Shown: positions 14,131 to 35,985 of the stretch, one piece after another
How positions within the stretch are numbered: the first letter of the stretch is position 1
How the letters are laid out: each line of letters begins with the position of its first letter
NCBI GenBank assembly: GCA_947652925.1
Contig: CANTEW010000026.1
Location: forward strand, 1-36,197
Direction of reading: 5' to 3'
DNA length: 36,197 nucleotides
Origin: an uncultured Lachnospiraceae bacterium
GTDB lineage: Bacteria; Bacillota; Clostridia; Lachnospirales; Lachnospiraceae
Position numbers and translations under genes: made by a program
Notes under the pieces: model-generated
The model's input: only the letters and a program-made list of their open reading frames with translations
Told to the model about the DNA's origin: nothing
The model's database searches: none

Positions 14131-14187
14131 CTCAAAATCCTTTTGTTATAAGTCTGCCATGTTTTTTGCATGATCGGATCTTTTGTC

Positions 14188-14216
14188 TTTACTTTTTCTT
14201 TATTATGTGTTATTAT
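14188..14216 (+). promoter_or_regulatory. Promoter of the tRNA-Sec-selA-selB unit
   Basis: TTTACT and TATTAT are separated by 17 bases in a very AT-rich stretch. Transcription would start near 14223, about 14 bases before the mature tRNA 5' end. No second promoter is visible between the tRNA and selA, so this probably serves all three genes. Confidence 0.6.
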
Positions 14217-14236
14217 TTTTAAGGCAATTTCTTAAT

Positions 14237-14333
14237 GGGGGTAGATAGGTGCTGGTGTGCCTCACGGTCTTCAAAACCGCTGTGAGGGGTTAAGAGCCTC
14301 TCAGGTGAGTTCGATCCTCACGTACCCCCGCCA
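14237..14333 (+). tRNA. selC: Selenocysteine tRNA (UCA anticodon)
   Basis: The 97-base gene encodes its own CCA end and folds as a Sec tRNA, which reads UGA. The D stem has six pairs (AGGUGC with GUGCCU) closed by a four-base loop UGGU. The anticodon loop is CUUCAAA, giving UCA. A long variable arm follows, and a five-pair T stem (GUGAG/CUCAC) carries UUCGAUC. The acceptor begins GGGGGUAG and ends GUACCCCC plus G discriminator: seven pairs are good, but the eighth is G opposite G, and the first anticodon-stem pair is A opposite C. The six-pair D stem, four-base D loop and long variable arm leave little doubt about identity. Confidence 0.95.
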
Positions 14334-14359
14334 AAAAATAAGAGATGAGGTACAAAAGA

Positions 14360-15763
14360 TTGAATATGGATAAGAAAGAGCGTTTGCGCTCTCTCTATAA
14401 AGTTGACGAGGTACTGCAGGACGAGTGCCTTGTTTTTTTTAAGGAAAAACTGCCCTACTCCCTGGTGGCGGACAGTGTCAGAAAAGAGATCGATCTGCTC
14501 CGGGATGCTGTGATCAGGGAGGAAGGCTGCCCGCCCGCTCTGACAGACCGGCAGATATTCCTAGACCGGGTGATCCACCGCATCCAGATGGCGTCCACGC
14601 CCAGCCTGCGCCGGGTGATCAACGCCACAGGCACGATCTTGCACACCAACCTGGGACGCTCCCCCCTGAGCCAAAAAGCCATTGAACACGTGATAGATGT
14701 CTCCTGCTCCTATTCTACCCTGGAATACGATCTGAAGACTGGCCGCCGCGGTTCCAGGCATGACCACGTGAGCGGCCTGATCTGTCAGGCCACCGGAGCC
14801 GAAGCCGCTATGGTCGTCAACAATAACGCAGCCGCCACGATGCTGGTGCTGTCCAGCATGGCAGAGGGACAAGAAGTGATCGTATCCCGGGGGGAGCTGG
14901 TAGAAATCGGAGGCTCCTTCCGGATCCCGGATATCATGAGTCTGAGCGGCGTCACTCTGAGAGAAGTAGGGACCACGAACAAGACCCATCTTTCTGATTA
15001 TATCCGGGCTATAGACAGTGAATGCACAGCCGCCCTCATGAAAGTACACACCAGCAATTACCGTATCATAGGTTTCACAGAAGACGTTCCCCTGTCCGGA
15101 CTGCGGAGATTGGGCGATCAGTACGCATTACCTGTGATCTACGATATGGGGAACGGGCTGCTCACTGACCTGAAAGGATACGGGATCTTCGAGCCGGCTG
15201 TCTCCGACGCCATGAACGCCGGAGCCGACGTGGTATTATTCAGTGGGGACAAACTATTGGGCGGCCCACAGGCTGGCATCATCATCGGAAAGAAAAAATA
15301 TATCGAGAAAATGAAACGCCACCCGCTGGCAAGGGTCGTGCGTATCGATAAGATGACTCTTTCTGCATTGGAAGCTGTATTCTTCCAATACCAGGATATA
15401 GAAAGAGCCAAACAGGAGATCCCTGCCCTGCAGATGCTCACCTGTCCGAAAGAAAAGCTGTATGAAAGAGCCGTCCGGTTAAGAACACGTCTCACACCGG
15501 ACGACAGCTCACTCCATATGGATATAGAAGCCTGCGAGGATTTTGTGGGCGGGGGTTCTGCCCCCGACGTCCGCCTGGATGGATGGGCCGTGACCCTCCA
15601 CTCCCCTATCCTCACCACAAAACAGATCGAATACAACCTCCGGAAGAGCCAGATCCCGGTCATCTCCCATATCAGCCAGGATAAAGTCTGGCTCCATATG
15701 CGGACGATCTCAGATAAAGATATGGAGGATATAGCTGAAAACGTCTCAAAACTGAAAGGATGA
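14360..15763 (+). CDS. selA: L-seryl-tRNA(Sec) selenium transferase SelA
   Basis: SelA is a PLP enzyme that converts Ser-tRNA(Sec) to Sec-tRNA(Sec) with selenophosphate. Family signatures are INATGTILHTNLGRSPLS, the block VVNNNAAATMLVLSSMA, SRGELVEIGGSFRIPDIM and KVHTSNYRIIGFTE. The cofactor lysine lies in FSGDKLLGGPQAG (codon at 15251). The start is uncertain: an ATG at 14345 is only 11 bases after the tRNA and lacks a ribosome site. The TTG at 14360 has GAGGT eight bases upstream, and an ATG at 14366 places the PLP lysine at residue 296, close to the E. coli position. The gene is 7 bases ahead of selB and follows tRNA-Sec with no visible promoter. Confidence 0.95.
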   Translation: MNMDKKERLRSLYKVDEVLQDECLVFFKEKLPYSLVADSVRKEIDLLRDAVIREEGCPPALTDRQIFLDRVIHRIQMASTPSLRRVINATGTILHTNLGRSPLSQKAIEHVIDVSCSYSTLEYDLKTGRRGSRHDHVSGLICQATGAEAAMVVNNNAAATMLVLSSMAEGQEVIVSRGELVEIGGSFRIPDIMSLSGVTLREVGTTNKTHLSDYIRAIDSECTAALMKVHTSNYRIIGFTEDVPLSGLRRLGDQYALPVIYDMGNGLLTDLKGYGIFEPAVSDAMNAGADVVLFSGDKLLGGPQAGIIIGKKKYIEKMKRHPLARVVRIDKMTLSALEAVFFQYQDIERAKQEIPALQMLTCPKEKLYERAVRLRTRLTPDDSSLHMDIEACEDFVGGGSAPDVRLDGWAVTLHSPILTTKQIEYNLRKSQIPVISHISQDKVWLHMRTISDKDMEDIAENVSKLKG

Positions 15764-15770
15764 TAGTCTT

Positions 15771-17678
15771 ATGCAAAATGTCATTATCGGGACTGCCGGT
15801 CACATCGATCACGGAAAGACCTGTCTCATCAAGGCGCTCACCGGTACAGATACCGACCGTTTAAAAGAAGAAAAAAAGCGCGGTATAACCATTGAACTGG
15901 GTTTTGCCAAAATGGAGAGCGGTGACGCGGATACCAATATCGGCATCATCGATGTCCCCGGCCACGAAAAATTTGTGAAAAATATGCTTGCCGGCATCGG
16001 AGGCATCGACCTTGTACTCCTGGTCATCGCAGCAGACGAAGGGATCATGCCCCAGACAAGAGAACACATGGACATCCTGCGGCTGTTGAATATCAGGCAT
16101 GGTCTTGTCGTCCTGACAAAATGCGATAAATGCGAAGAAGACTGGATCGAACTGGTCACAGACGAGGTCACAGGATATCTGGCAGGTACTTTTTTAGAAG
16201 GCTCCCCTGTCTTTCAAGTGTCCTCCCATACAGGCCAGGGTATAGAAGAGCTGCGCACAGAGATCCTGGAAATGGTCAAGACACTCCCCGCCCACAACAC
16301 AGACCCCGACACCTTCCGCCTTCCCATCGACCGGGTCTTTACCATGAAAGGACACGGCACGGTGATCACAGGGACTCTGATCGAGGGGACCTGCAAGACA
16401 GGTGAGGAAGTGGAACTGATGCCCGGTGGGATCCCGGCTAAGATCCGCAGTATCCAAGTCTATGGACAGGAAGCTGAACAAGCCTATGCAGGACAGCGGA
16501 CTGCGCTGAACCTGACGGTAAAGACAGAAGCCATCGACCGGGGATCTGTCGTTGCAAGACCAGGCAGCATGATCAGGACCTATATGGTGGATGTACGTCT
16601 GTATCTGCTCGAGAACACCGAGCGCACTGTACGCAACAACAGCAGAGTCCATTTCTACTATGGTTCCGATGAGGTCATCGGCAAGGTCGTATTTTTCGAC
16701 CGGGATGAGCAGCTCCCGGGGGAGACGTCCTACGCACAGATCCGGTTTGAGAGGGAGATCGCCTTAAAACGCCTGGACTATTTCACCATCCGTTTCTATT
16801 CACCCCTGGAGACGATCGGAGGAGGCGTCGTGCTGGACGCCAGTCCCAGACGGCATAAACGCAGCCAGGAGACTGTGCTGCAGTCTATGCAGATCAAAGA
16901 CACCGGGTCAGAAGAAGAACTCATGGAGAGATTCCTGGAAGAAGAAAGCCCTGTATTCCCGGATACTATGCTTTTATCCTTAAAGACAGATCTCTCCCTC
17001 TCTGAGACGGCCGCTGTCCTGAAAAGATTGAAAGGCACCGGCCGTGTACTTGAGATCAAAAAAAATATCTTCATCCATAAACAGTTTTATGACAGCATCT
17101 GTCCCTTCCTCACGGAAATGCTGGAAAACTTCCATAAGTCCAACGCTCTGACAGAAGGACTTTCAAAAGAAGAAGTAAAGAGCCGGCTGATCAAGAAACT
17201 CCACGATGCCGGCAGCAAAAATATCGACGTATTCTATGACTATCTGATCCAGAAAAAAGTGATCAAAGAAAAAGACGGCCTGACATCCCTCTATGCATTC
17301 GTCCCGAAACAGAGCGTGGATAACAGACAGGAATCCCAGGATATCATCCGTTCCTATAAAGAGGCAGGTTTTGCCATGCCGAAGACCGACGATATCATCA
17401 ACAGGAGCAAGAACTCCAAAGTCACCCGGCAATTATTGGATAAGATGGTCAAGGACGGGGAACTCATAAAGATCACGCCGGCTTATTATATGCACAAAGA
17501 CTGCTATGGACAGGCACTGGGACTCCTAAAAGATTTCATCCAGGAAAAAGGGAGCATCACATTGGCCGATTACCGGACACTCCTGAACAGTTCACGTAAA
17601 TATACGCAGATGATATTGGAGTATTTCGACAGCAAACATATCACAAAACTCGCAGATGAACGAAGGACTCTGTTATGA
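15771..17678 (+). CDS. selB: Selenocysteine-specific elongation factor SelB
   Basis: SelB delivers Sec-tRNA(Sec) to UGA codons marked by a SECIS hairpin. The 635-residue protein has the GTPase motifs G1 GTAGHIDHGKTCLIKALTG (about 7-25), G2 RGITIELGF, G3 DVPGHEKFVKNML and G4 TKCD. EF-Tu-like barrel domains with MKGHGTVITGTLIEG follow, and then an extended C-terminal region (about 380-635). That region should form the winged-helix repeats that bind the SECIS RNA; the last, around KYTQMILEYFDSKHIT, is the likely RNA contact. Length is normal for bacterial SelB. AAAGGA precedes the ATG. It closes the plus-strand Sec unit. Confidence 0.97.
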   Translation: MQNVIIGTAGHIDHGKTCLIKALTGTDTDRLKEEKKRGITIELGFAKMESGDADTNIGIIDVPGHEKFVKNMLAGIGGIDLVLLVIAADEGIMPQTREHMDILRLLNIRHGLVVLTKCDKCEEDWIELVTDEVTGYLAGTFLEGSPVFQVSSHTGQGIEELRTEILEMVKTLPAHNTDPDTFRLPIDRVFTMKGHGTVITGTLIEGTCKTGEEVELMPGGIPAKIRSIQVYGQEAEQAYAGQRTALNLTVKTEAIDRGSVVARPGSMIRTYMVDVRLYLLENTERTVRNNSRVHFYYGSDEVIGKVVFFDRDEQLPGETSYAQIRFEREIALKRLDYFTIRFYSPLETIGGGVVLDASPRRHKRSQETVLQSMQIKDTGSEEELMERFLEEESPVFPDTMLLSLKTDLSLSETAAVLKRLKGTGRVLEIKKNIFIHKQFYDSICPFLTEMLENFHKSNALTEGLSKEEVKSRLIKKLHDAGSKNIDVFYDYLIQKKVIKEKDGLTSLYAFVPKQSVDNRQESQDIIRSYKEAGFAMPKTDDIINRSKNSKVTRQLLDKMVKDGELIKITPAYYMHKDCYGQALGLLKDFIQEKGSITLADYRTLLNSSRKYTQMILEYFDSKHITKLADERRTLL

Positions 17679-17686
17679 TCCATCAG

Positions 17687-17729
17687 AGATGATCGTGGCC
17701 GCCAGATAAACTGGCAGTCACGATCATCT
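17687..17729 (+). terminator. Long hairpin after selB, probable terminator
   Basis: Nine bases after the selB stop, an 11-pair perfect stem (AGATGATCGTG with CACGATCATCT) encloses a short internal loop and a second stem, GCCAG/CTGGC, with loop ATAAA. It is followed by a loose T-rich run (CATTCTTTTATC) rather than a clean U-tract. Its position at the end of a convergent unit supports termination. Confidence 0.6.
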
Positions 17730-17732
17730 ATA

Positions 17733-17916
17733 TCATTCTTTTATCCTATCAAGTTCTGTGAGGTTTATACCGAATGCCGTTAATATGATCTTTAATTCAA
17801 TATATCGTTCTTTCATCTCACGGTATGCTTCAGAATCTTTATCAGATAAACGCATATACCTTTGGAGCCTTGAAAATTTTTCTACATTTTTCTGTATCAC
17901 CTCTTTTTTCAGTCAT
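17733..17916 (-). pseudogene. Small unknown protein gene with an apparent frameshift in an A6 run
   Basis: An ATG at 17916 has a perfect GGAGG site 8 bases upstream and begins MTEK, but after GAAAAAAG the frame drifts and soon stops. Removing one A would give MTEKEVIQKNVEKFSRLQRY followed by a charged, helical 60-residue protein ending NLTELDRIKE, with its stop at 17733. That second frame has protein-like composition but no ATG near its beginning (only CTG at 17912 and GTG at 17900). I read it as one small gene broken by a +1 insertion in the A tract, or a sequencing error, or a recoded gene. I do not recognise the family. Confidence 0.5.
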
Positions 17917-18013
17917 CTCTATCGCCTCCATATTTTGATCGTATGGTCCATCATCTGCACTACCCTTACCCTCATCATACCATGATCTTTTCATAAAAAA
18001 AAGATGCGATGCC

Positions 18014-18046
18014 AAAAAAGAGACCGCACCGCAGCAGTCTCTTTTT
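18014..18046 (-). terminator. Rho-independent terminator of the fdhF-hylCBA unit
   Basis: On the minus strand GAGAC and GTCTC, extended by A/T pairs on both sides, form a stem around a 12-base GC-rich loop and run directly into a TTTTTT tract. It starts about 20 bases after the hylA stop. The A-rich left side makes it potentially bidirectional, which would also insulate the converging selB transcript. Confidence 0.88.
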
Positions 18047-18065
18047 CTCTATATCAATTTTCATT

Positions 18066-18977
18066 TTATTCAACATCCAATTGAGCCTTCAATGCTTCTC
18101 TGGCTCTTTCGATATCCTTAGCCTCTAAGACAGCGATCTGGCCTGGCCTCTGGACATCGTAGAATTCAAACCGACCTTTATTGCAGAGACGGCCTTTATT
18201 AGCAGAATCCGGGTCTGCCACAACATCCAAGATCTTATTATCTTTCAATAACAAGACACGCTTACATTCTTTCTTACAATTATAGCAAGTAGATTCCACT
18301 CTCTTAACTTCCCATGGACGGTACTGAGAACGGTTCTTCGGTCTCAGGGCGCCTACTGGACAAGCCTGGATACAGTTTCCACAGAATTCACATTCCATGT
18401 TGTTGATCCACTGATCCTGGAACGGAGCGGCTGAAACTTTAGAATTGAATCCCCTCTTGGAAAGACCGATCGCGCTGCGGCCTACCAGATGTTCACAGGT
18501 ATTGACGCACCTATGGCAGAGGATGCAGAGGTTCGGGTCATATGTAAAATATGGGTTGGAATCATCGATCGGTTTTTTGACCATCTCACCTTCGTAAGAA
18601 GTCTTTTTCACGCCATATTCATAGCAGAGGGACTGGAACTCACAGTCACCGTTGCCGGCACAGTCAAAGCAGTGGTTGGGATGGTTGGAGAGCATAAGAT
18701 CCAATACGCCTCTCCTCGCTTTGATGACTCTCTCACTCTTTGTGAGGATCTCATTGCCATCGGCGATAGGGAAGGAACATGCCGTTACAAGTTTCGGCAT
18801 ACCAACGATCTCGACCATACACATCCTGCAGGATGCTTCCGGTGTCATGAATTTCAGGTAGCACAAAGTAGGGATCTTGATGCCTACGCTCTCTGCTGCC
18901 TTTAAGATAGTTGTTCCAGGATCCACTTCAACTTCTTTACCGTCTATTGTTGCATGGATTTTTTTAATGTAACTCAA
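18066..18977 (-). CDS. hylA: HylA-like iron-sulfur subunit (NuoG N-terminal type) of formate dehydrogenase complex
   Basis: This 303-residue electron-transfer subunit contains only the cluster-binding part of a NuoG/FdhA protein. It has a 2Fe-2S site (C39, C50, C53, C67) and a His-Cys 4Fe-4S site (H99, C103, C106, C112). Two ferredoxin-type 4Fe-4S sites follow (C151/154/157 with C206; C196/199/202 with C161), then a molybdopterin-type 4Fe-4S site (C231, C234, C238, C265). The protein ends soon after that, without a molybdenum domain. The start is a TTG at 18977 with AGGAGG seven bases before it; upstream codons cover hairpin-rich spacer. It is last in the unit and fits HylA of the clostridial bifurcating formate dehydrogenase. 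Confidence 0.85.
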   Translation of the reverse strand: MSYIKKIHATIDGKEVEVDPGTTILKAAESVGIKIPTLCYLKFMTPEASCRMCMVEIVGMPKLVTACSFPIADGNEILTKSERVIKARRGVLDLMLSNHPNHCFDCAGNGDCEFQSLCYEYGVKKTSYEGEMVKKPIDDSNPYFTYDPNLCILCHRCVNTCEHLVGRSAIGLSKRGFNSKVSAAPFQDQWINNMECEFCGNCIQACPVGALRPKNRSQYRPWEVKRVESTCYNCKKECKRVLLLKDNKILDVVADPDSANKGRLCNKGRFEFYDVQRPGQIAVLEAKDIERAREALKAQLDVE

Positions 18978-19048
18978 GATATAACCTCCTGTACGCAGTA
19001 TTTCAAAAGGATAGTGAACGGACATAGCAGCCCGTGCAATGCCAGAAC

Positions 19049-19074
19049 GAGGGGAACGGGCAGACCCGCCCCTC
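19049..19074 (-). promoter_or_regulatory. GC-rich hairpin in the hylB-hylA gap
   Basis: GAGGGG and CGGG pair with CCCG and CCCCTC, ten pairs interrupted only by an AA bulge, with a CAGA loop. A second small inverted repeat (TCCCG/CGGGA, 19076-19093) lies next to it. There is no U-tract, so termination is unlikely. It sits in a 131-base gap between cotranscribed subunit genes and may protect or set the processing of the mRNA. Confidence 0.55.
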
Positions 19075-19108
19075 ATCCCGACACTATCCGGGACTTTGAT
19101 ACTATGGG

Positions 19109-20989
19109 TTACGCTTTGTAGATAGCGTCTTTCTTACATTTAGTCATACAAACGCCGCACTTCAGGCACTTCGCAGTATCGATCTCATGCGGTTGTTTCT
19201 TCTCGCCAGTGATTGCGTCGCCCGGGCAGTTCTTCTTACAGAGACCGCATCCGATACATTTCTCAGCATCGATATGGTAGGATACCAGGTTCTTACATTT
19301 GCCAGCCGGACATTTCTTATCCTTAACGTGAGCGATGTATTCATCTTTGAAATACTTATATGTGGACAATACAGGGTTCGGAGCTGTCTGTCCCAATGCA
19401 CACAAGGAGTTTTCTTTGATCAGGTTGCAAAGTTCGACCATACGGTCTAAGTCTTCCATCTCAGCTTTGCCGTCTGTGATCTTGTTCAGCAGTTCGAGCA
19501 GTCTCTTTGTACCGATACGGCAAGGTGTACACTTACCACAGGACTCATCTACTGTAAACTCTAAGAAGAATTTAGCGATGTCCACCATACAGTCGTCTTC
19601 GTCCATAACGATAAGTCCGCCGGAACCCATCATAGAACCGATGGATACAAGGTTGTCGTAATCGATCGGGACATCGTAATTTTCCAGAGAGATACATCCG
19701 CCGGACGGTCCGCCTGTCTGTGCAGCCTTGAATTTCTTGCCATTCGGGATGCCGCCGCCGATGTTTTCAACAACTTCGCGGAGTGTGGTCCCCATGGGGA
19801 TCTCTACCAGACCAACGTTGTTGATCTTACCGCCGAGAGCAAATACTTTTGTACCTCTGGACTTCTCTGTCCCCATGCCGGCAAACCAGTCAGCACCCTT
19901 TAAGATGATCTGCGGGATGTTCGCCCATGTCTCAACGTTGTTTAAGATCGTCGGCTGACCGAACAGACCTTTGACTGCCGGGAATGGCGGACGCGGTCTT
20001 GGCTCGCCGCGGTTACCTTCGATAGAAGTCATGAGAGCAGTCTCTTCACCACATACGAACGCACCTGCACCAAGACGAAGATCGATATCGAAGCTGAAGC
20101 CAGTACCGAAGATATTGTCACCCAATACGCCGTACTCCCTTGCCTGTGCAAGAGCGATGTTCAGACGGTCTACTGCGATCGGGTACTCTGCACGGACATA
20201 GATATAGCCCTGGTTAGCGCCGATCACATAACCAGCGATCGCCATCGCCTCAAATACAACATGGGGATCGCCCTCTAATACGGAACGGTCCATGAATGCG
20301 CCCGGGTCACCTTCGTCGGCGTTACAGCAGACATATTTCTGTACGCCTGGTTCTCCGCCCATCGCGAACTGCCATTTCTTTCCTGTGGGGAAGCCACCGC
20401 CCCCACGGCCACGCAGACCGGAGTCTGTGATGCATTTTACAACATCTTCCCTTGACATAGTGGTCAGGACTTTAGCCAGAGCCTGGTATCCGCCTGTGCC
20501 GATATATTCGTTGATACATTCCGGGTTGATCACACCGCAGTTCCTAAGTGCCACACGGTTCTGCGGTTTGTAGAAATTCGTCTGGTTCATGGAAATGATA
20601 CCGTCCTCGGTAACTGTTTCCTGATACAGATATTTTGTCACTACATTGCCTTTTACCAGATGCTCGGACACGATCTCAGGAACATGCTCCAATTCCATAT
20701 TTGAATAGAAAGCTGCTTCCGGATAGATGATCATGACAGGGCCCAGAGCGCAGAGGCCATGGCATCCTGTACGGATCACGCATACTTCTTCTTCCAGCCC
20801 AGCCGCTTTGATCTCTTCTTCCAGTTTGTCAGCGATCTTCTGGCTGCCTGAAGATGTACATCCAGTACCTGCACATACCAGTACATGTGAGCGGTATTTA
20901 CCATTTCCCCTCTCACCGTGTTCTTTTCTGAAATTTACGATATCTTGATTTTTTTCTTTGATTTCTTGTAATTGTTCAATTGTGATCAC
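19109..20989 (-). CDS. hylB: HylB-like NADH/FMN-binding subunit (NuoF family)
   Basis: This 626-residue diaphorase subunit is where NAD would react. An N-terminal thioredoxin-like 2Fe-2S domain (C39, C44, C76, C80) is followed by the NuoF core. The core has the FMN/NADH glycine-rich loop GLRGRGGGGFPTGKKW (about 190-205), CNADEGDPGAFMDRS, and an SLBB domain. The 4Fe-4S site is SCGKCTPCRIGTKRL. The C-terminus adds two ferredoxin 4Fe-4S motifs (CIGCGLCKKNC and CLKCGVCMTKC). The start is GTG at 20989 with AAAGGAGG upstream. The same architecture occurs in HydB of bifurcating hydrogenases; the neighbouring fdhF and lack of any H-cluster protein point to the formate dehydrogenase version. Confidence 0.9.
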   Translation of the reverse strand: MITIEQLQEIKEKNQDIVNFRKEHGERGNGKYRSHVLVCAGTGCTSSGSQKIADKLEEEIKAAGLEEEVCVIRTGCHGLCALGPVMIIYPEAAFYSNMELEHVPEIVSEHLVKGNVVTKYLYQETVTEDGIISMNQTNFYKPQNRVALRNCGVINPECINEYIGTGGYQALAKVLTTMSREDVVKCITDSGLRGRGGGGFPTGKKWQFAMGGEPGVQKYVCCNADEGDPGAFMDRSVLEGDPHVVFEAMAIAGYVIGANQGYIYVRAEYPIAVDRLNIALAQAREYGVLGDNIFGTGFSFDIDLRLGAGAFVCGEETALMTSIEGNRGEPRPRPPFPAVKGLFGQPTILNNVETWANIPQIILKGADWFAGMGTEKSRGTKVFALGGKINNVGLVEIPMGTTLREVVENIGGGIPNGKKFKAAQTGGPSGGCISLENYDVPIDYDNLVSIGSMMGSGGLIVMDEDDCMVDIAKFFLEFTVDESCGKCTPCRIGTKRLLELLNKITDGKAEMEDLDRMVELCNLIKENSLCALGQTAPNPVLSTYKYFKDEYIAHVKDKKCPAGKCKNLVSYHIDAEKCIGCGLCKKNCPGDAITGEKKQPHEIDTAKCLKCGVCMTKCKKDAIYKA

Positions 20990-21008
20990 TATGTACGTCC
21001 TCCTTTAA

Positions 21009-21503
21009 CTATTCATACTGTGCGAGAATACCATCAACCATATCAGCAGTCAGACGTCCATGAACTTCTCCATTAACTGTCATAACTGGCGCCAGACCAC
21101 AAGCACCGATGCAACGGCAGGCTTCTAAAGAGAATTTTCCATCTTCTGTACACTGTCCTCCGGTGATACCCAGAGCGCTCTGCAGTTTGTCGTAGATCTG
21201 GCCGGAGCCTTTTACATAGCATGCTGTACCCAGACATACAGAGATGTTGTATTTTCCCTTCGGATACAGGGAAAAGAATGAATAGAATGTAACGACGCCA
21301 TAGATCTTAGCCAAAGATACCTGCAATTCCTCAGAGATGATCTTCAGCGCTTTTTCCGGAAGATACCCGAAGATATCCTGTGCCTGCTCTAATACAGGGA
21401 TCAGAGGACTCTTTGTGCCTTTATATCTAGCGATCAGTTCCGCTAATTCTTTTTCCTGCTCTGGTGTTCCCCTATAAGGAATGTTGATTCTTTCGTCACT
21501 CAT
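21009..21503 (-). CDS. hylC: HylC-like 2Fe-2S subunit (NuoE family)
   Basis: This 164-residue thioredoxin-fold protein is the partner of NuoF-type subunits. The N-terminal helical part includes LIPVLEQAQDIFGYLPEKAL. The 2Fe-2S ligands are in VCLGTACYVKG and EACRCIGACGLAP, the typical C-x4-C and C-x3-C pairs of NuoE/HydC. An AAGGAGG site precedes the ATG. Only 19 bases separate its stop from the hylB start, so the two are surely cotranscribed. Confidence 0.93.
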   Translation of the reverse strand: MSDERINIPYRGTPEQEKELAELIARYKGTKSPLIPVLEQAQDIFGYLPEKALKIISEELQVSLAKIYGVVTFYSFFSLYPKGKYNISVCLGTACYVKGSGQIYDKLQSALGITGGQCTEDGKFSLEACRCIGACGLAPVMTVNGEVHGRLTADMVDGILAQYE

Positions 21504-21539
21504 TTTATAATACCCTCCTTATTCCACATGAACTGGATA

Positions 21540-21573
21540 CCCAGGGTATCGCTTAAGGGAGCGATACCCCAGG
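21540..21573 (-). promoter_or_regulatory. Strong hairpin just after the fdhF stop
   Basis: Fourteen base positions pair (CCTGGGGTATCGCT with AGCGATACCCTGGG on the minus strand, two of them wobble) around a six-base loop. The stem begins about 15 bases after the fdhF stop and has no U-tract, so it is unlikely to be a full terminator. A 3' stability or processing element in the fdhF-hylC mRNA is a reasonable reading. Confidence 0.6.
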
Positions 21574-21587
21574 ATCATCTTTTATGA

Positions 21588-24359
21588 TCAAAACATTTTA
21601 GCCATTTTCTTTTTTTTGCGCACGATATTCGGTACTTCCATATACTGGCAGCATTCCTTCTCTTCGGTCGCTTTTTCTACTTGGACAGCGGTCACCTTAT
21701 ATTCAGGTGTCTTGGAGAAATCATCCAAGTGATCGCCTACCAGCCAGTTTGAGTTACCGTCTAAGAAATGGAATGGCATCCAAACTTCGCCCTTGCTTGT
21801 CTTGCCGGATACTCTTGCCCAGGATGCGATACGTCCATGTGGGGAAGATACATATACTTTGTCGCCGTCTACAATCCCAAGTGCTTGCGCATCCTCGGTA
21901 TTGATCTCGATAAAGGAGTTGCCGGAAAGCTCATTGATCTCAGGCGTCCGCGCAGTCATAGCACATGCATTGTAATGATAGAGTACACGGCCAGTGATCA
22001 TGATGAACGGATACTCCTCAGATACCTGCTGTGTGGATGGCTGATATTTCGCCGGATAGAAGTAGCCTAAGCCCCTTGCAAATTTGCCCACATGCATGAT
22101 CGGAGTACCAGGATGATCTTTCGCTGTACAGGGCCACTGCAGACCTTTGCCGCCAACTTCCGGGCTGTCCAGTCTCTCATGGCTGATACCGGCAAACGAC
22201 GGAGTGACAGACGCGATCTCATCCATGATCTCGGCAGGTGTGAGGATCGGCTGATCATAGCCCATTCTCTGCATGATCAATGAGAAGATCTCTGTATCTG
22301 GCTTGGTACCTGGGATCTCGATAGCTTTGCGCACTCTCTGTACACGGCGTTCTGTATTCGAGAACGTACCTTCTTTTTCCAGATAAGAACGGCCAGGTAA
22401 GATAACATCGGCATATTTCGCTGTCTCAGTCATGAACAATTCATCTACGACTAAGAAATCCAGGCTCTTCAGAGCTTTGATCACATGGTTTGTATCCGGG
22501 TCTGTCACGACGGGGTCTTCACCGAAGATGAACAGACCTTTGATCTTACCATCGATCATATCATGGAAACATTCCGTTGCCATCCTTCCGGGTTGTAAAT
22601 GTTTCAGGTCTACGCCCCAGGCTTTTTCAAATTTCTCCACGACAGCCGGGTCTGCGACCTTCTGGTAACCTGTATATACGTTTGGCTGAGCGCCCATATC
22701 GCAGGCACCCTGTACATTGTTCTGTCCACGGATGGGGTTCACGCCGCAGCCTGCCTTGCCAAGTTTTCCGACCATCATAGCCATGTTGGACATGGACATA
22801 ACGCCTTCTGTACCTGTGTGATGTTCTGTGACACCCAGGCAGTACATGATCGGAGCACGGTCAGCTTTTGCATACAGGCGGGCGGCTTCCCTCAGATCTT
22901 CTGGATCTATGTGGCAGATCTCACCAACTTTTTCTGGCGTATAATCTTTTACGATCGCAGCCAGTTCTTCAAATCCTTCTGTTCTATCAGCGATAAATTC
23001 TTTGTCGATCAAGCCTTCTTCAATGAAGACATTCATCATACCATTTGCAAATGCAACGTTTGTACCTGGTTTCAGTTTCAGGTGGATCGCCGCTTTCTTT
23101 GCAAGGTCTATCTCACGAGGATCGACTACGATGAGCTTTGCGCCTCTCGCAACTGCCTGACGGACCTGCATACCAATGACTGGATGGGCCTCTTCAGGGT
23201 TGGAGCCGCACAGTAAGATCACATCTGAATCATGTGTGATATCTTCGATGGTGTTTGTCATAGCACCAGAACCTAACGTCATTGCCAGACCGGCAACAGT
23301 AGGTGCATGTCAAACACGGGCGCAGTTATCGGTATTGTTGGACTCGAACGCAACCCTGGTCATCTTCTGGAGCATGTAGATGTCCTCATTGGTTGAACGT
23401 GAGCAAGCAAAACCTGCCAGCGCCTGACCTCCATATGTTTTTTTAAGCTCTGTGAATTTCGATGCTACTAAGTCCAGGGCTTCATCCCAGCCGGCTTCTC
23501 TGAATTCACCGGTCTCCCTGTCCTTGATCAGCGGTGTGGTGATCCTTTCATCACACTGTGCGAAATCAAAGGATGCGGAACGTCCTTTCACACACAGCAG
23601 GCCTCTGTTGGACGGGCCGTCTGCTGCTTCCACGTCTACGACTCTGTTATCCTTTACATATACATAGTATTGGCATCCGGTCGCACAGTGGGGACATGTG
23701 GTGAGGACTTTCTCAACGTCCCAATGACGATATGTTTTCTGTTTCTTCATGGTGAGCGCGCCTGTCGGACATGCCTGTACGCAGTTCCCGCAGGATTCAC
23801 AGTTGCTGTCCGCCCAGTCCATGCCGAATGCAGGGCTGATCACAGACTTGAACCCACGCTGTGTTGTATCGATGGATCCGCGGCAGGTACGTTTCTGACA
23901 TGTGTTCACACACCTGTGGCAGAGGATACACAGATTCGGGTCATATGTAAAGAACTTATTGGAATCGTCGATCGCTTTTTCGACGCCTTCAAACGGCACA
24001 TCCTTCACACCATACTCGAAGCAGAGATCCTGCAGTTTACACATACCATTCTGCGGACATGAGAAGCAGTCAGTCTTATGATTGCTCATCAACAGTTCCA
24101 GTACGCCCCTCCTGGCTTTCACAACCCTTTCAGTCCTGGTGTGGACTACATTTCCGTCAGCAGCAGGGAATGAACATGCTGTGACTAATTTGGGCATCCC
24201 TTCGATCTCGACCATACACATACGGCAAGATGCTTCAGGAGTGACATCTTTTAAATAACATAGTGTTGGGATCTCTACGCCGGCAACTTTGGCTGCCTCT
24301 AAGATCGTAGAGCCTTGCTCGACTTCTACGGTGATCCCATCGATGGTCACTTTAATCAT
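21588..24359 (-). CDS. fdhF: Selenocysteine-containing formate dehydrogenase catalytic subunit, with in-frame UGA (Sec350)
   Basis: This 923-residue enzyme interconverts formate and CO2 at a Mo or W bis-pterin site. Domains: 2Fe-2S (C34, C45, C48, C62); His-Cys cluster (H94, C98, C101, C107); two ferredoxin 4Fe-4S sites (C144/147/150/154 and C187/190/193/197); the catalytic-domain 4Fe-4S site (C222, C225, C229, C256); then the molybdopterin domains. An in-frame TGA at 23310-23312 falls in NCARV-U-HAPTVAG, where formate dehydrogenase H of E. coli has selenocysteine. A SECIS hairpin follows, so this is one gene and not two. The ATG at 24359 has a perfect AGGAGG site; upstream codons lack one. 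The NuoG-like N-terminus fits transfer to the hylCBA products downstream. Confidence 0.95.
23281..23312 (-). promoter_or_regulatory. Bacterial SECIS element and UGA(Sec) codon
   Basis: After the UGA (23310-23312) come 12 bases, then a stem GUUGCC/GGCAAU with loop GGUCU. Spacing and the GUUGC-GGUCUG core coincide base for base with the E. coli fdhF SECIS, in which the GGUC loop and the U after it contact SelB. The hairpin is inside the coding sequence, as usual in bacteria. Confidence 0.9.
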
Positions 24360-24408
24360 CGTATCTCCTCCTATCAGATTTTTTGATGCTAATAAAACGA
24401 TCAGGATT

Positions 24409-24444
24409 TTACGGGATTGACTCCCGTTCATACTTCTTATACAT
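24409..24444 (-). CDS. Possible 11-residue leader peptide upstream of fdhF
   Basis: An AGGAGG site is followed at normal spacing by ATG and the codons for MYKKYERESIP, then TAA. The last codons overlap a five-pair hairpin (CGGGA/TCCCG, 24412-24426). The stop is 50 bases before the fdhF ATG. Such a good ribosome site ahead of so short a frame suggests a translated leader, but conservation cannot be judged from one sequence. It could also be a decayed gene start. Confidence 0.4.
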   Translation of the reverse strand: MYKKYERESIP

Positions 24445-24480
24445 TTTATCTTCCTCCTATTTTATATATGACCGTAACGA

Positions 24481-25728
24481 TCATAAAAAAACATCAGTCC
24501 CCACCCACGGGACTAACACTTCCGGTATCTGTATACTGTCGTTTTCCATGTTCTGGTTCTGCTCCAGTATGGCTGCAAAGAGCCTGCTCGTGGCAAGTCC
24601 CGATCCATTCAGAGTATGCACATGACGGACCTTTCCCCGTTCATCCCTGTAACGGGTGTTCGTCCTGCGCGCCTGATAATCCCTTGCGTTCGATATGGAG
24701 CTGACTTCCTTATAGATCCTTTCTGCAGGGAGCCATACCTCTATATCATAAGTCCGCGCCATGGCCGCACTGCATTCACGCGCCGACGACTTCACCACCC
24801 GATAATGCAGGCCGAGCTGCTGCATCAGATGTTCCGCCTGCTGTAAGATCTCCGCAAACGCCTTATCAGACTCTCCTTCTTCCACGAATTGGACATTTTC
24901 TACTTTATTAAAGTGATGCCCCCGGATCATCCCCCGGTCCTCCGGGGCACTGCTCACTTCCCTGCGGAAGCAGGAAGTGTAGGAAGTATACTTGAGCGGC
25001 AGGTCTATGTGTCTCAAGATCTTATCCCTGTGCAGGTTCACAAGTATCGTCTCTGCTGTGGGGATCAGAAAATTCCCACTGTCCTGGACTTTGTAAGTCT
25101 CATCCTCAAATTTCGGGAACTGTCCCGCACCAAAGCCACAGATCTCACGTGCTACAGGCGGGAGCATCACCATCTCATACCCTGCTTTCTGGTTTTCCTC
25201 CAGACAGAAATTCAAAAGTGCCCATTCCAGCTTGGCGCCTGCCCCTCTGTATATCCAATAACCGCTCCCCATAAGATCCGCCGCCGTCTCATAATCGACC
25301 AGGCGATGTCTCCTGCATAACTCCATATGGCCTTTGGGCTGAAAACCGAACACCGGCTTTTCATTATAATGATATAAGACTTCCGAGGTCTCCTGCACAT
25401 CATCGTCCAGGAGATTGGGCAGGCGTACCAAGATATCCTGTAACTGCGCCGCCTTTGTACGCAGGTTCTGTTCCAAGCCGTCGAGCTTATGGTCGATCGC
25501 ATAGATGACAGCCAGCAGGTCGTCCGCCCCTGCTCCCTCTTTTTTCCGGACAGATACTTCCTTAGACAGAAGGTTTTTCTTATGCTTGAGGTCTTGCAGA
25601 TCCGTTTGCAGGCTCAGTCTTTCTTTATCCAAGCTGAGGAACTCTTCTATCGAGATATGTATGCCCCTTTTACCGAGATTCTCCTGCACATACGCAGGAT
25701 GTCTCCTGATCTGCTCTATGTCCAACAT
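24481..25728 (-). CDS. serS: Divergent seryl-tRNA synthetase
   Basis: SerRS charges tRNA(Ser) and also tRNA(Sec), the first step of selenocysteine synthesis. The 415-residue protein has the N-terminal coiled-coil tRNA-binding arm (about 30-100) and class II motifs: the serine-binding TAE in LIPTAETILVN, motif 2 in SCFRREVSSAPEDRGMIRGH and HFNKVE, and motif 3 in HTLNGSGLATSRLFAAILEQ. Several normally invariant blocks differ: LCTGDLGFSAAKTYD is replaced by KSSARECSAAMARTYD, and AGSAGRDTRGL by VSSAPEDRGM. The catalytic residues remain, so activity is likely. It has its own promoter, no T-box is seen, and no clear terminator separates it from fdhF. A second, housekeeping SerRS elsewhere is likely. 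Confidence 0.9.
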   Translation of the reverse strand: MLDIEQIRRHPAYVQENLGKRGIHISIEEFLSLDKERLSLQTDLQDLKHKKNLLSKEVSVRKKEGAGADDLLAVIYAIDHKLDGLEQNLRTKAAQLQDILVRLPNLLDDDVQETSEVLYHYNEKPVFGFQPKGHMELCRRHRLVDYETAADLMGSGYWIYRGAGAKLEWALLNFCLEENQKAGYEMVMLPPVAREICGFGAGQFPKFEDETYKVQDSGNFLIPTAETILVNLHRDKILRHIDLPLKYTSYTSCFRREVSSAPEDRGMIRGHHFNKVENVQFVEEGESDKAFAEILQQAEHLMQQLGLHYRVVKSSARECSAAMARTYDIEVWLPAERIYKEVSSISNARDYQARRTNTRYRDERGKVRHVHTLNGSGLATSRLFAAILEQNQNMENDSIQIPEVLVPWVGTDVFL

Positions 25729-25799
25729 AAGATCTTTTCCACGCTATCTATCAAAACTCATGCTCTTTACACAACATGTAGTGCTTTTTTCGCACTTTC

Positions 25800-25828
25800 T
25801 TTATATAGTTATAACATAGATCTATCAA
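25800..25828 (-). promoter_or_regulatory. Promoter of serS
   Basis: TTGATA and TATAAA are spaced by 17 bases on the minus strand, about 70 bases before the serS ATG. The leader between them holds only a five-pair hairpin (AGTGC/GCACT with an A-rich loop). No T-box antiterminator sequence is present. Confidence 0.6.
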
Positions 25829-25873
25829 TTTGTACATAGAAACTTACAACATTTTTTCAAGATCGCTGTGATC

Positions 25874-31564: not shown

Positions 31565-32431
31565 TCAAAGGAGCCGTACAGCCTCCACCTTTTTTTCCAC
31601 CGTATGACTGCTGTTTTTTATACACATCTGTCCTGCGATCGTTATCTGTTCTTTGGTGCTCAGAACGGCATCCACATACTGCATAGGCCCGTCTACGGGG
31701 ACATCCACCCATTCCATTTTGTCCATACCCAGCAGTGCGAAGGATGTCTTCGGGCAGAGGAAGATCTGCGTCCGGCCTGCGGCAGTCTTTTCCGCCTGTT
31801 TCAGGAATGGATAGGTAAAGTGTTCCACCATATATCCCGTGTTTTTCGGCCCCAATATATTCAGACCGCCGGAAGGATCCGCATAGCTGATGATGTCCAC
31901 CTGGTACTCGATCGCTCTCTCGATAAACCGGAGCAGTCCTCCTGCCAGCCTGTCGAAGACCTGCTGCATCTCTTCCGGCTGTTTTTTCATAGCGCGGAAT
32001 ACATAACGTGCATCCATCAGCCCATTTAATATGGTAAATGGCCCGGATATCATGAGAGCCACGTTCTCTCCCTGTCCGCTCAGATATCTGCAGGCTTTCA
32101 GCGTCTCATGGATCCTGCCTTTTTCGTAGTCGATCTCCGGGAGAGCCAGGATCTGTTCCGGTGTCTCGCAGATGTATCCTTTCGCCCGCGGCCCGGCGGT
32201 GGCATTTCCCAGGTTCACACTCCCGCCCATCGCTTCCGCTTCCAGTGTATGGCAAAAAGGAAGCACGCAGAAGTTTACATTTTCTTTTTTCTTTATCTCC
32301 AGAGCGATCTTTGCCATGGTATCCCAGTGGCGATAGGCGTCTGGATATGTAAGATCCAGTCTCTCTGCCACATCGCTGCTGATACCGACAGCATGATCAT
32401 ATGTGCAATCAAAATCGATGAGTTTTCCCAC
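31565..32431 (-). CDS. Short UroD-fold methyltransferase-like protein lacking the zinc His
   Basis: This 288-residue protein is of the uroporphyrinogen decarboxylase/MtaA superfamily. LPFCHTLEAEAMGG and ISYADPSGGLNILGP align with VPFCMTVEAGALGA and ISDPSGTGEILGP of the larger methyltransferase at 34277-35305. It lacks the N-terminal PGGMMN segment. Where that protein has HIC it reads FLC (224-226), keeping one Cys; a further Cys is C270 in AGQMC. The start is GTG with GGGGAGG upstream, directly preceded by an in-frame TAA, so no extension is possible. It follows the RACo gene by 53 bases and is probably cotranscribed. A methyl-donor-specific methyltransferase or regulatory partner is possible; heme synthesis is unlikely. 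Confidence 0.8.
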   Translation of the reverse strand: MGKLIDFDCTYDHAVGISSDVAERLDLTYPDAYRHWDTMAKIALEIKKKENVNFCVLPFCHTLEAEAMGGSVNLGNATAGPRAKGYICETPEQILALPEIDYEKGRIHETLKACRYLSGQGENVALMISGPFTILNGLMDARYVFRAMKKQPEEMQQVFDRLAGGLLRFIERAIEYQVDIISYADPSGGLNILGPKNTGYMVEHFTYPFLKQAEKTAAGRTQIFLCPKTSFALLGMDKMEWVDVPVDGPMQYVDAVLSTKEQITIAGQMCIKNSSHTVEKKVEAVRLL

Positions 32432-32484
32432 TTATGATACCTCCCCTGATATTATCCCCACACAAAGACGGTCATATCCGTCTC

Positions 32485-34284
32485 TTACTCCACGGACGGA
32501 AAGAGCAGACAGTCGGAAAACAATCTTTCATACCCTTTCGTTTCGCTCAGTTCCATATAGTCCATATGAGCGGCTGATCTCTCCATCTCACGTTTTACCT
32601 GGGCGGACATCAGCGCCATATGAGCGCCGGTCTTGGATGAATTGCCCACATATACGATCTTGTCGCTGACCCCAGCCGGAAGGATCCCTGTCCCTGTCAG
32701 GCTTTCGGCTGGAAGATGCGCGCCGAACTGCCCGGCGACCATGATCTTGTCCAGATCTTCCATAGTGATCCCGGCTTTGTTGAGGAGTGCGGTAAGACCA
32801 GAGAGGATGGCGCCTTTTGCCAGCTGGACCTGACGGATATCCCGCTGGGTGATCGATAGCTGTCCCGGATATCCTGTCAGGATAAATTCTCTCTTCTTGC
32901 CGTTTGATCGGAGCATCGGGAAACGGTAGTCTGCATGATCCAGCTGTTCTTTTTTTATAAAGGTCCCGTTGGGACGGATCAGACCCACTCTCAACAGCTC
33001 TTTTACAGCTGCAAGGATGCCGCTCCCACATATCCCGGCGGGCTGCCCGCCTCCGATCACTTTCACTTTGACCCCTTCTCCTGTTATGCGCACATCCTCA
33101 ACAGCGCCCTGGGCGGCACGCATCCCGCAGCTGATGTTCATCCCCTCAAGGGCCGGGCCTGCAGCACAGGAACAGCAGAGGAGTCTCCCGTGGTCTGAAA
33201 GGACGATCTCACCGTTCGTGCCGATATCTATAAAAAGGATGTTCTGATCCGCTCCCTTCAGTCCGCACACATGCGTCCCAGCTACGATGTCCGCGCCGAT
33301 ATAGGCGGATACTGACGGCAGGCAGTAGAGTCTTGCGCCTGCCGCCGCCTTAAGTCCGATCTGGGATGCAGGGATGTCTCTCGCCCTCACGAACATGGGC
33401 GCGTAGGGAGCTTTTCCGATGGATACAGCGTCCACCCCCAGGAGCATATGCATCATGGTGCAGTTCGCGCCCACTGTGATCTCGTAGATCGCCTCCCGCT
33501 GTATCCCTGTCTGGCGGCAGACCTCCTGTATCATGTCATTGACAGAGTCCACGATCGCTCTCTGAAGATCTGCAGTCCCTGTCTCCGGGTGTTCGGATGC
33601 ATAAGTGATACGGGTCAGCACATCCAGACCGAAATGTTTCTGGGCGTTGATCATAGACGCATTGGCCAGTTCTTTCCCTGTGTGCATATCGATCAGCGCA
33701 CAGACTACTGTCGTCGTGCCGATGTCTATGGCTACACCGTATAAAACATCTGAAGTATCCCCCGGTTCCAACTGGATGATCCGTCCGTTGTGTGATACGG
33801 CTGTCATTGTCCCGGGGATAAACCTTCCTGCGGCCAACACGCCAAAATCAAGATCTTCCACGTGTACCTGCTCTCTGATCTGATCTTCGAAAGATGTCTG
33901 GCTGTCTGATCCCGGTTTTGTGATCTTGATGACCTGTTTTGTGATATCACAGTCGAATATAAGATCCGGGATATATCCGGTGGTCAGGACTTCGTGTTCC
34001 CGTTCTTTCTGGAGGAGGCCTATCTCCAGATCCTCCTGGGGCGTCACCATACACGCAAGACGTATCCCCTTGTCCAGTTCTCCTTGTCTGAGCAGTCCTT
34101 TTTCTGTGTCCTGTACGGGCGGGAGTGTCCCGGAAAGTATCTCTACGCGGCATTTTCCACAGATGCCCTTGCCGTTGCAGGGGTTATCCACAAATATTTT
34201 ATGTTCCAGGAGGATATCCAGCAGGCTCTTGCCTGTTTCATATGTGTAGATCTTTCCGGATGGTCGTATGGTCATTTTAGGCAT
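32485..34284 (-). CDS. RACo-type reductive activator of corrinoid proteins (2Fe-2S plus ASKHA ATPase, DUF4445)
   Basis: Corrinoid methyl carriers are occasionally oxidised to Co(II); RACo proteins reduce them back to Co(I), driven by ATP. The 599-residue protein has an N-terminal 2Fe-2S ferredoxin domain (C36, C42, C45, C78) and a linker. The ATPase core of the acetate kinase/Hsp70 type follows: GVAIDIGTTTVVCALID (about 183-199), FIDIGTNGEIVLSDHG, CSCAAGPALEGMNISCGM, GGGQPAGICGSGI. Length and order match RACo from acetogens. It overlaps the methyltransferase gene upstream by 8 bases and starts at an ATG with GAGG upstream. Its presence is a good marker that the neighbouring corrinoid protein is used for methyl transfer. 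Confidence 0.9.
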   Translation of the reverse strand: MPKMTIRPSGKIYTYETGKSLLDILLEHKIFVDNPCNGKGICGKCRVEILSGTLPPVQDTEKGLLRQGELDKGIRLACMVTPQEDLEIGLLQKEREHEVLTTGYIPDLIFDCDITKQVIKITKPGSDSQTSFEDQIREQVHVEDLDFGVLAAGRFIPGTMTAVSHNGRIIQLEPGDTSDVLYGVAIDIGTTTVVCALIDMHTGKELANASMINAQKHFGLDVLTRITYASEHPETGTADLQRAIVDSVNDMIQEVCRQTGIQREAIYEITVGANCTMMHMLLGVDAVSIGKAPYAPMFVRARDIPASQIGLKAAAGARLYCLPSVSAYIGADIVAGTHVCGLKGADQNILFIDIGTNGEIVLSDHGRLLCCSCAAGPALEGMNISCGMRAAQGAVEDVRITGEGVKVKVIGGGQPAGICGSGILAAVKELLRVGLIRPNGTFIKKEQLDHADYRFPMLRSNGKKREFILTGYPGQLSITQRDIRQVQLAKGAILSGLTALLNKAGITMEDLDKIMVAGQFGAHLPAESLTGTGILPAGVSDKIVYVGNSSKTGAHMALMSAQVKREMERSAAHMDYMELSETKGYERLFSDCLLFPSVE

Positions 34285-35305
34285 CTGCAGGGACCTCTTC
34301 TTTTAAAGTGCGCAGGATCGCCTGGATATTGGAAAGGGGGGATCTTGTCCCCAGGCCGCAGGCGGGAGAGATGATATCTGATCCGCTCTCCACACAGTTT
34401 CTTGTGAGCTTTGATACGTGCGCGGGGTCGCCAAATTCCAGGGCGTAAGTACTCACGTTGCCCATCAGGACACGGCCTTCCAGGTTTTTCTTCGCATCTT
34501 TCATAGAGACAACGGAATCGAAGCTCAACACGTCGCTGTGTACCATGTCCACCTGCTCATAGACATTTTTCATCTGCCCGCAGATATGGACGATCGTCCC
34601 GATCTCTGCTCCCCGGAGCTGTCCCAACAGCATGTTCAGGTATCTCACTGCAAATTCTTTGAACATACGCGGGCCGAGGATCTCGCCCGTCCCGCTGGGA
34701 TCGGAGATGGCGATCACATCTGCGCCTGCGTTGATCTGCGCTTTTGCATACTTGATGATCTGCTCTGTCACAAATGTCATATATGCATGGGCTTCTTTAT
34801 TCTTTTTCCGCAGCTCTTTGTAAAAGACAACAGGTTCCAGCAACGAACTGGCGGTGCTGACCGGTCCGGTCACATTGCCGATGATCGGCACGTCCAGATC
34901 CTTTTCTTTCAGGATACGGATGGCGTCCAAGACAACTTTTGCCCTTCCGCTGTCTTCATCCATCGGCTTTAACTTTTTCCATTCTCCTACAGAACCGATG
35001 GCATAGCCGGTCACATGGGGCTCATATTCCTTACTGCCCATGGTGACCTCTGCTCCTAATGCTCCAGCCTCCACAGTCATGCAGAAAGGAACGCCTACGT
35101 TTTCAAAACAGCCGTTTTCATAGGCAGCCAGCGCCAGTTCTGCCATCATGTCTGCATCTGTGTGGACTCCCGGCCAGCTTATCCCACTTTTGTCCATCAG
35201 CTCTGTGGTGATCATATTCATCATCCCGCCCGGACAGATACAGGGCGGACGGTCTACCTGTCCATGGTGGAAAGCTCTCTTTAAACGTTCTTTTTCCGAC
35301 AGCAT
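34277..35305 (-). CDS. Corrinoid-dependent methyltransferase, MtaA/MtbA-like (UroD fold)
   Basis: This 342-residue zinc methyltransferase is of the family that moves methyl groups between a corrinoid protein and a thiol or other acceptor. Features are the N-terminal MLSEKERLKRAF, the marker CPGGMMNM (about 24-31), and DPSGTGEILGPRMF. The zinc ligands H240-x-C242 (VHICGQM) and C316 (SPACGLG) have the His-x-Cys...Cys layout and spacing of MtaA/MtbA. I chose the ATG at 35305 with an AGAGG site; an ATG at 35332 overlaps the previous stop but has a weaker site. In a bacterium lacking coenzyme M the acceptor or donor must differ; tetrahydrofolate or a methoxylated or methylated compound are candidates. 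Confidence 0.87.
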   Translation of the reverse strand: MLSEKERLKRAFHHGQVDRPPCICPGGMMNMITTELMDKSGISWPGVHTDADMMAELALAAYENGCFENVGVPFCMTVEAGALGAEVTMGSKEYEPHVTGYAIGSVGEWKKLKPMDEDSGRAKVVLDAIRILKEKDLDVPIIGNVTGPVSTASSLLEPVVFYKELRKKNKEAHAYMTFVTEQIIKYAKAQINAGADVIAISDPSGTGEILGPRMFKEFAVRYLNMLLGQLRGAEIGTIVHICGQMKNVYEQVDMVHSDVLSFDSVVSMKDAKKNLEGRVLMGNVSTYALEFGDPAHVSKLTRNCVESGSDIISPACGLGTRSPLSNIQAILRTLKEEVPADA

Positions 35306-35328
35306 GCGGTCGCCTCTTTTTATATCTA

Positions 35329-35985
35329 TCATGCTATGCCTACCAGTTCTTTTGCTTTTTTGACCGCGCCGACTGCATTGACAGAATAGCCGTCAGCTCC
35401 GATATCATTGGCGTATTTCTGCGAGACCGGGCTGCCGCCGACCATGACTTTAAACCGATCGCGGATGCCTCTCTCTTCCAGTTTTCCGATGACTGCCGCC
35501 ATACCTGGCATCGTGGTGGTCATGAGTGTGGACATGCAGATGATGGATGCTCCCACTTCCACTGCCTTCTCCACAAAATCATCCAGCGGCACGTCTCTGC
35601 CCAGATCGTATATCTCAAATCCGGCTGTATCCATCATGATCTTCACAAGATTCTTTCCGATATCATGGGTATCGCCTTCAACAACCCCGATGACCACTCT
35701 CGGCTTCTCGGCGCCGTTCTCTTCCACCGGCAGGTGCGGGCGCAGCACGTCAAGTCCGGCGTACATCGCATCAGAACAGAGGAGTACGTCTGTCACAAAA
35801 TATTCTTCCTCATCGTACAGATCACTCACCTTATCCATACCGTCTACCAGACCGTCCATGATCCCGTCAAATACGGGATACCCTGCTCCCAGATATTCAT
35901 TCGCCACATCAACGACTGTCTCATCTTCCATCTCCACGACGCATTCAGATAACTGTGCCAGTAATGCTCCTTTTTCTCTTGCCAT
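35329..35985 (-). CDS. Methyltransferase corrinoid protein (MtaC/MtbC/MttC-like)
   Basis: This 218-residue carrier holds a cobalamin-type cofactor and shuttles a methyl group between two methyltransferases. An N-terminal helical cap (about 1-90; YLGAGYPVFDGIMDGLVDGMDK, read in pieces) is followed by the B12-binding Rossmann domain. There EGDTHDIGKNLV supplies the cobalt-ligating His of the DxHxxG motif (about 105-112), with STLMTTTM and GGSPVSQ further on. Length and order are normal. It is the first gene after the strong promoter, with GGGAGAGAGAG as ribosome site, so it should be the most abundant product of the unit. Confidence 0.93.
   Translation of the reverse strand: MAREKGALLAQLSECVVEMEDETVVDVANEYLGAGYPVFDGIMDGLVDGMDKVSDLYDEEEYFVTDVLLCSDAMYAGLDVLRPHLPVEENGAEKPRVVIGVVEGDTHDIGKNLVKIMMDTAGFEIYDLGRDVPLDDFVEKAVEVGASIICMSTLMTTTMPGMAAVIGKLEERGIRDRFKVMVGGSPVSQKYANDIGADGYSVNAVGAVKKAKELVGIA

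Follow-up and report, generated by a model that had tools for sequence, protein, structure and literature searches.

Among the amino acids, selenocysteine (Sec) has been described as the one that lacks a synthetase of its own, being built on a tRNA-Sec that is charged by the "canonical" seryl-tRNA synthetase (SerRS) (PMC13188914). The locus considered here, in which a divergent SerRS gene lies among a set of Sec-decoding genes and a Sec-dependent formate dehydrogenase, raises the question of what a second such synthetase is doing in this setting, and whether it may serve tRNA-Sec.

The Locus and Its Gene Content

The window, by which we mean the whole 36,197-nucleotide stretch that was analysed, is the entire contig C26 of the draft genome of a gut Lachnospiraceae bacterium, G000 (2.9 Mb, 98% complete). 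In its middle part, tRNA-Sec, selA and selB on the plus strand converge on serS2, fdhF (with its UGA codon), hylC, hylB and hylA on the minus strand:

14188..14216, plus strand: promoter-like site before tRNA-Sec and left edge of the homology with G151; promoter match at chance level
14237..14333, plus strand: tRNA-Sec with UCA anticodon; ARAGORN, and Rfam RF01852 at 68.4 bits (gathering score 47)
14345..15763, plus strand: selA; TIGR00474 at 569.8 bits (cut-off 267.9)
15771..17678, plus strand: selB; TIGR00475 at 368.7 bits (cut-off 242.25)
18066..19076, minus strand: HylA-like iron-sulfur subunit; Pfam, with a C-terminal Molybdop_Fe4S4 domain
19109..20989, minus strand: HylB-like subunit, NuoF-type, with FMN-binding domain; profile and Pfam matches
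21009..21503, minus strand: HylC-like subunit, NuoE-type, 2Fe-2S; profile and Pfam matches
21588..24359, minus strand: fdhF, Sec formate dehydrogenase, with in-frame TGA at 23312-23310
24409..24444, minus strand: mini-ORF encoding MYKKYERESIP, situated between serS2 and fdhF and conserved in G151 and G150
24481..25728, minus strand: serS2, divergent second seryl-tRNA synthetase; TIGR00414 at 370.9 bits (cut-off 301.65)
25808..25836, minus strand: TGTACA-17-TATAAC promoter-like element before serS2, found by eye and unscored

A preliminary description had seen here a Sec-decoding set facing a Sec-dependent fdhF/hyl unit with a divergent SerRS, and profile searches, Rfam and ARAGORN bore out these genes. 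It had also placed selD outside the block, which proved correct: selD lies on a separate contig (C64:5585-6493, 395.4 bits against a cut-off of 125), with an intact frame and, by eye, no further sel gene recognised in its region, while the other genes of the route are present in the block. Of the parts of a bacterial Sec-decoding system, the genome holds tRNA-Sec, SelA and SelB over curated cut-offs, and SelD elsewhere. A search for a second serS, which the same description had proposed, located the ordinary serS (encoding SerRS1) on contig C2, away from the window, so that the gene in the block is the second copy, a paralogue. The promoter placed before tRNA-Sec fared less well: the site at 14188 exists, with 9 of 12 matches, but promoter-like sites are no commoner in the window (13) than in shuffled sequence (mean 14.8). 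PADLOC returned no match.

The Formate Dehydrogenase Unit

A single TGA interrupts the otherwise continuous frame of fdhF, and this codon aligns with a cysteine in four paralogues of the genus (G000:C74, G151, G150 and G153). The true start of the gene is probably the ATG at 24359, which GGAGG precedes, rather than position 24431. A hairpin with a GGUCU loop folds after the TGA, with a z of -0.45 that is not significant, and the window holds no Rfam SECIS match at the gathering score. The HylA-like protein, whose true start, judged by eye, probably lies downstream of 19076, shares 55% identity with the N-terminal part of FdhF and has no hydrogenase large-subunit domain in Pfam. FdhF with three Hyl-type subunits, HylA being without an H-cluster domain, is the gene content of HylABC-FdhF2, and Sec-FdhF with these partners would form an NAD-linked formate dehydrogenase. 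By likeness to the Clostridium acidurici complex (PMC6085437), the FdhF-Hyl complex may join formate/CO2 to NAD and ferredoxin; electron bifurcation of this kind is predicted, as is transcription of the minus-strand genes as an operon.

As a separate observation, NG86 synonymous distances between G000 and G151 are 0.45-0.55 for the part of fdhF after the UGA and for hylB and hylC (19109-23309, minus strand), and 1.0-1.75 for selA, selB, both serS genes and miaB. The low values may reflect either recent exchange or strong codon bias.

tRNA-Sec and Candidate Signals

The tRNA-Sec lacks one nucleotide on the 5' side of the acceptor stem relative to the Rfam model. We considered whether SerRS2 is matched to such short-acceptor tRNAs, and this was ruled out by the same gap in G231, G207 and G032, whose best SerRS2 matches have E-values of 4.2e-92, 4.0e-87 and 1.7e-45, against 5.8e-186 for the orthologue in G685. 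At position 14322, on the 3' side (alignment column 88), all four SerRS2 carriers have G and the 27 other sequences, three of them cut unevenly at their ends, have A (23) or C (4); no other alignment column separates the two groups.

Upstream of serS2, the element TGTACA-17-TATAAC, which was missed by the promoter scan, is present in both G000 and G151 in surroundings that, by eye, have otherwise diverged. The mini-ORF between serS2 and fdhF encodes MYKKYERESIP in G000, MYKRYERESIP in G151 and MFKRFSRESIP in G150, each ending at a stop codon. In a comparison of G000 with G150, the final five codons include four synonymous changes and none that alters the residue, and a different stop codon is used. 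The same stretch was also considered as an RNA element on account of a hairpin, a weak candidate given that the G150 stem is shorter by eye and the peptide is kept.

The Second Seryl-tRNA Synthetase

SerRS2 is 28% identical to SerRS1 and has the features of a class II bacterial SerRS, namely an N-terminal arm, a core domain and motifs 2 and 3, with the catalytic TAE and the motif 2 and motif 3 residues intact. The motif-2 stretch is 14 residues long in all four members of the SerRS2 clade and 15 in 75 of 75 other SerRSs, a one-residue deletion in the loop, and the linker has 23 residues in the three full-length members as against 27-28 in all 75 others; the comparison set is uneven, consisting largely of best matches to the window protein, and a motif filter dropped L076 from it. 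The motif-2 loop of SerRS contacts the tRNA acceptor end.

In a tree of 79 rows, the SerRS2 proteins of G000, G151, G150 and G685 form one clade (SH-aLRT 100) on a stem branch of 1.21. Its neighbours are 34 bacterial SerRSs from other Clostridia, including three of the same family, and SerRS1 lies far away; this is a quick tree with long branches flagged, and the exact sister of the clade is unsure. Judged by sequence, the SerRS2 lineage is different from the ordinary SerRS lineage of the family. The path between G000 and G151 is about fivefold longer for SerRS2 (0.51) than for SerRS1 (0.11). For the same pair, NG86 dN/dS is 0.088 for SerRS2, with a dS of 1.75 that is near saturation, and 0.026 for SerRS1, while SerRS2 values against G150 or G685 are unusable on account of saturated dS. 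The gene is therefore not decaying but under purifying selection.

Two further observations concern SerRS diversity. SerRS1 itself (G000:C2:100695-101948, L006) is of a very divergent type, with motif 3 reading HTLNNTVAAPPR, and the SerRS search also returned a 33% match (L013) in a metagenome-assembled genome titled Nitrososphaera.

Distribution across Genomes

The genomes compared most closely are drafts, five from one genus (G000, G150, G151, G152 and G153) and one, G685, from a second. G151 has the whole block in the gene order of G000, and G150 has it without hylB, on a contig that ends inside serS2; serS2 and fdhF are adjacent in all three. In G153 (98% complete), SerRS2 is missing, no SelB exceeds the cut-off, and the fdhF match is of the Cys type. 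In G152 (61% complete), selAB and the opp operon are present and no SerRS of either kind was found.

Across 397 genomes of the family (334 genera), matches to SerRS2 above 500 bits occur only in G000 and G685; the SerRS2 proteins of G150 and G151 came from a separate search of the genus, outside these matches. Three of the four carriers belong to one genus, so the finding amounts to two independent genera. In G685, contig C7 carries serS2 and, about 17.5 kb away, an fdhF that contains a TGA, together with hylC, hylB and hylA. MoeA and MoaA genes (Pfam) lie between serS2 and fdhF, and serS2 is also accompanied by a gene for a solute-binding protein (Pfam) and by others that, by eye, look like molybdenum genes; tRNA-Sec, selA and selB are on C44 and the ordinary SerRS on C40. 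Because G685 keeps serS2 and fdhF together on C7, apart from selAB, the tie between SerRS2 and Sec-FdhF survives a different gene order. The SelA and SelB of G685 are 67% and 77% identical to those of the window, against at most 55% and 48% at other loci outside the genus, and SerRS2 therefore co-occurs with one SelA/SelB lineage in both genera. All four carriers have a SelB over the cut-off as well as an ordinary SerRS, the latter as two fragments in G150.

Of 150 family genomes, 22 have SelB over the cut-off, counting G000, as do 60 of 391 genomes of the class. Leaving G000 aside, 20 of the remaining 21 SelB-bearing family genomes have no match to SerRS2 of at least 280 bits, and in the last one, G071, a 46% match is the only SerRS; SerRS2 is therefore not required for Sec. 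No SerRS gene was found near selB in 39 regions of other lineages, 22 from the 21 family genomes and 17 from among the 59 further genomes of the class that exceed the cut-off, some of these regions being cut by contig ends; the serS region of G542, taken as a positive control for the scan, was detected. G542 (L179, L187), which belongs to another family, has two full-length SerRS genes on contigs other than that of its selB. G136 has two SelB genes over the cut-off (L146, L147), and the copy on C104 adjoins fdhF and Hyl-type genes.

The SerRSs of the family that are 40-48% identical to SerRS2 were considered as a Sec-linked group and rejected: among the 12 genomes with a match of at least 280 bits, only G000 and G071 have SelB over the cut-off. 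A tRNA-Arg(CCT) gene adjoins serS in 7 of the 11 others, and in both of the two 30%-type serS genes looked at.

Edges and Possible Mobility of the Block

Homology with G151 starts at window position 14188, having ended at 14136 on the side of miaB. Three species have different left neighbours, namely miaB in G000, a Cys-type fdhF in G150, and transposase, PDDEXK_2 and phage integrase genes in G151, where the transposase and integrase lie within about 5.5 kb of tRNA-Sec. To the right, G000 and G151 remain syntenic as far as 35985, across the opp, URO-D, RACo and B12-binding genes, and the unit shared by these two genomes is therefore at least 21 kb. In G152 a lipoprotein-like gene, and not serS2, comes after the opp operon, which fits a putative right edge near 25.8 kb. 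The block is thus sharply bounded on its left, at an edge that varies, and a single genome supports the boundary on its right. Beyond opp on that side (31565-35985, minus strand), the URO-D, RACo, URO-D and B12-binding genes, also kept in G151, resemble those of a corrinoid methyl-transfer system.

The preliminary description had suggested that joint gain or loss across relatives would support a portable selenocysteine-formate module. Within the genus the comparison is largely in its favour, G151 and G150 having the block and G153 lacking it, whereas in G685 the parts lie on different contigs. Portability itself is partly supported: the changing left neighbour speaks for it, and the longer shared unit of G000 and G151 and the separated parts in G685 speak against it, as does a search for repeats, which found no bracketing direct repeat of at least 14 bases around the block. 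No integrase or transposase family appears among the 26 window ORFs scanned with Pfam, no donor was identified and no transfer event was caught for the block.

What the Second Synthetase May Do

The reading that we prefer, with a probability of roughly 0.55, is a predicted co-inherited Sec-formate block whose SerRS paralogue serves tRNA-Sec. SerRS2 would put serine on tRNA-Sec as the first step of the route, SelA would convert Ser-tRNA-Sec using selenophosphate from the unlinked SelD, and SelB would deliver Sec-tRNA at the UGA of fdhF. Such charging may perhaps take place in preference to that of tRNA-Ser; the stronger proposal, that SerRS2 is specialised as a synthetase devoted to selenocysteine, which would make the Sec route partly independent of the housekeeping SerRS, is a tentative one.

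One can also envision SerRS2 as an additional, general-purpose SerRS that charges tRNA-Ser and tRNA-Sec without distinction, its place coupling extra charging capacity to formate metabolism. The retained catalytic motifs and N-terminal arm would suit this role, as would the lack of any tRNA-Sec change clearly matching SerRS2, but the motif-2 loop deletion, the long stem and the fivefold path between G000 and G151 suggest a changed use, and we regard the idea as unlikely. A role as an inhibitor-insensitive spare, as in albomycin producers, placed by chance beside Sec genes, seems distinctly unlikely: a duplicated synthetase at about 30% identity is a described resistance pattern, albomycin included (PMC9437257), and serS2 has a peptide-type ABC transporter next to it in both G000 and G151, yet in both genera the carriers have the same SelA/SelB lineage and a nearby Sec-FdhF, G152 has its opp operon without serS2, and no inhibitor-biosynthesis-like gene is found among the 26 window ORFs scanned with Pfam. 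That this is an ordinary Sec formate dehydrogenase cluster in which a functionally irrelevant SerRS gene hitchhikes would agree with the well-described selABC-fdhA clusters and their joint transfer (PMC1794560) and with the 39 selB regions that have no SerRS gene. It is very improbable in view of the purifying selection on serS2 between G000 and G151 and its presence in a second genus with another gene order.

Comparison with Known Systems

Clusters of selABC and fdhA that move together are already known, and resemble this locus in having tRNA-Sec, selA and selB beside a Sec formate dehydrogenase with selD apart; the seryl-tRNA synthetase gene found here is not mentioned in the part of that account available to us (PMC1794560). 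A grouping of Sec genes into one or two small regions is likewise on record (PMC5322559), a Lachnospiraceae bacterium being one of the examples. The tRNA-Sec has an acceptor stem one pair short and so resembles the short (7+5) class of Clostridiales among others (PMC5330540), from which no difference was found; members of the class without SerRS2 have the short stem too. The formate dehydrogenase unit is like the NAD-dependent HylABC-FdhF2 of C. acidurici (PMC6085437) in having FdhF with three Hyl-type partners and a HylA without the hydrogenase H-cluster domain; HylA here ends in a Molybdop_Fe4S4 domain.

In a review of synthetase duplications, the cases given for SerRS are albomycin resistance, SLIMP and carrier-protein ligases (PMC9437257, as far as available). 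The albomycin-insensitive enzyme is alike in being an additional SerRS that has its own origin and shares about 30% identity with the ordinary enzyme, and differs in that the genomic setting here is that of Sec and formate dehydrogenase. A Sec-linked second SerRS was not met in the literature at the level of titles and abstract openings. Overall, clustering and joint loss or transfer of selABC with Sec formate dehydrogenases are known, and it is the tie of a diverged SerRS to a Sec block that is unusual. If the preferred reading is true, charging by the canonical SerRS would have an exception in a SerRS copy that accompanies one SelA/SelB lineage in two genera. Such a copy could explain how Sec systems work in hosts with a divergent SerRS, and would offer a natural insulated part for selenoprotein production.
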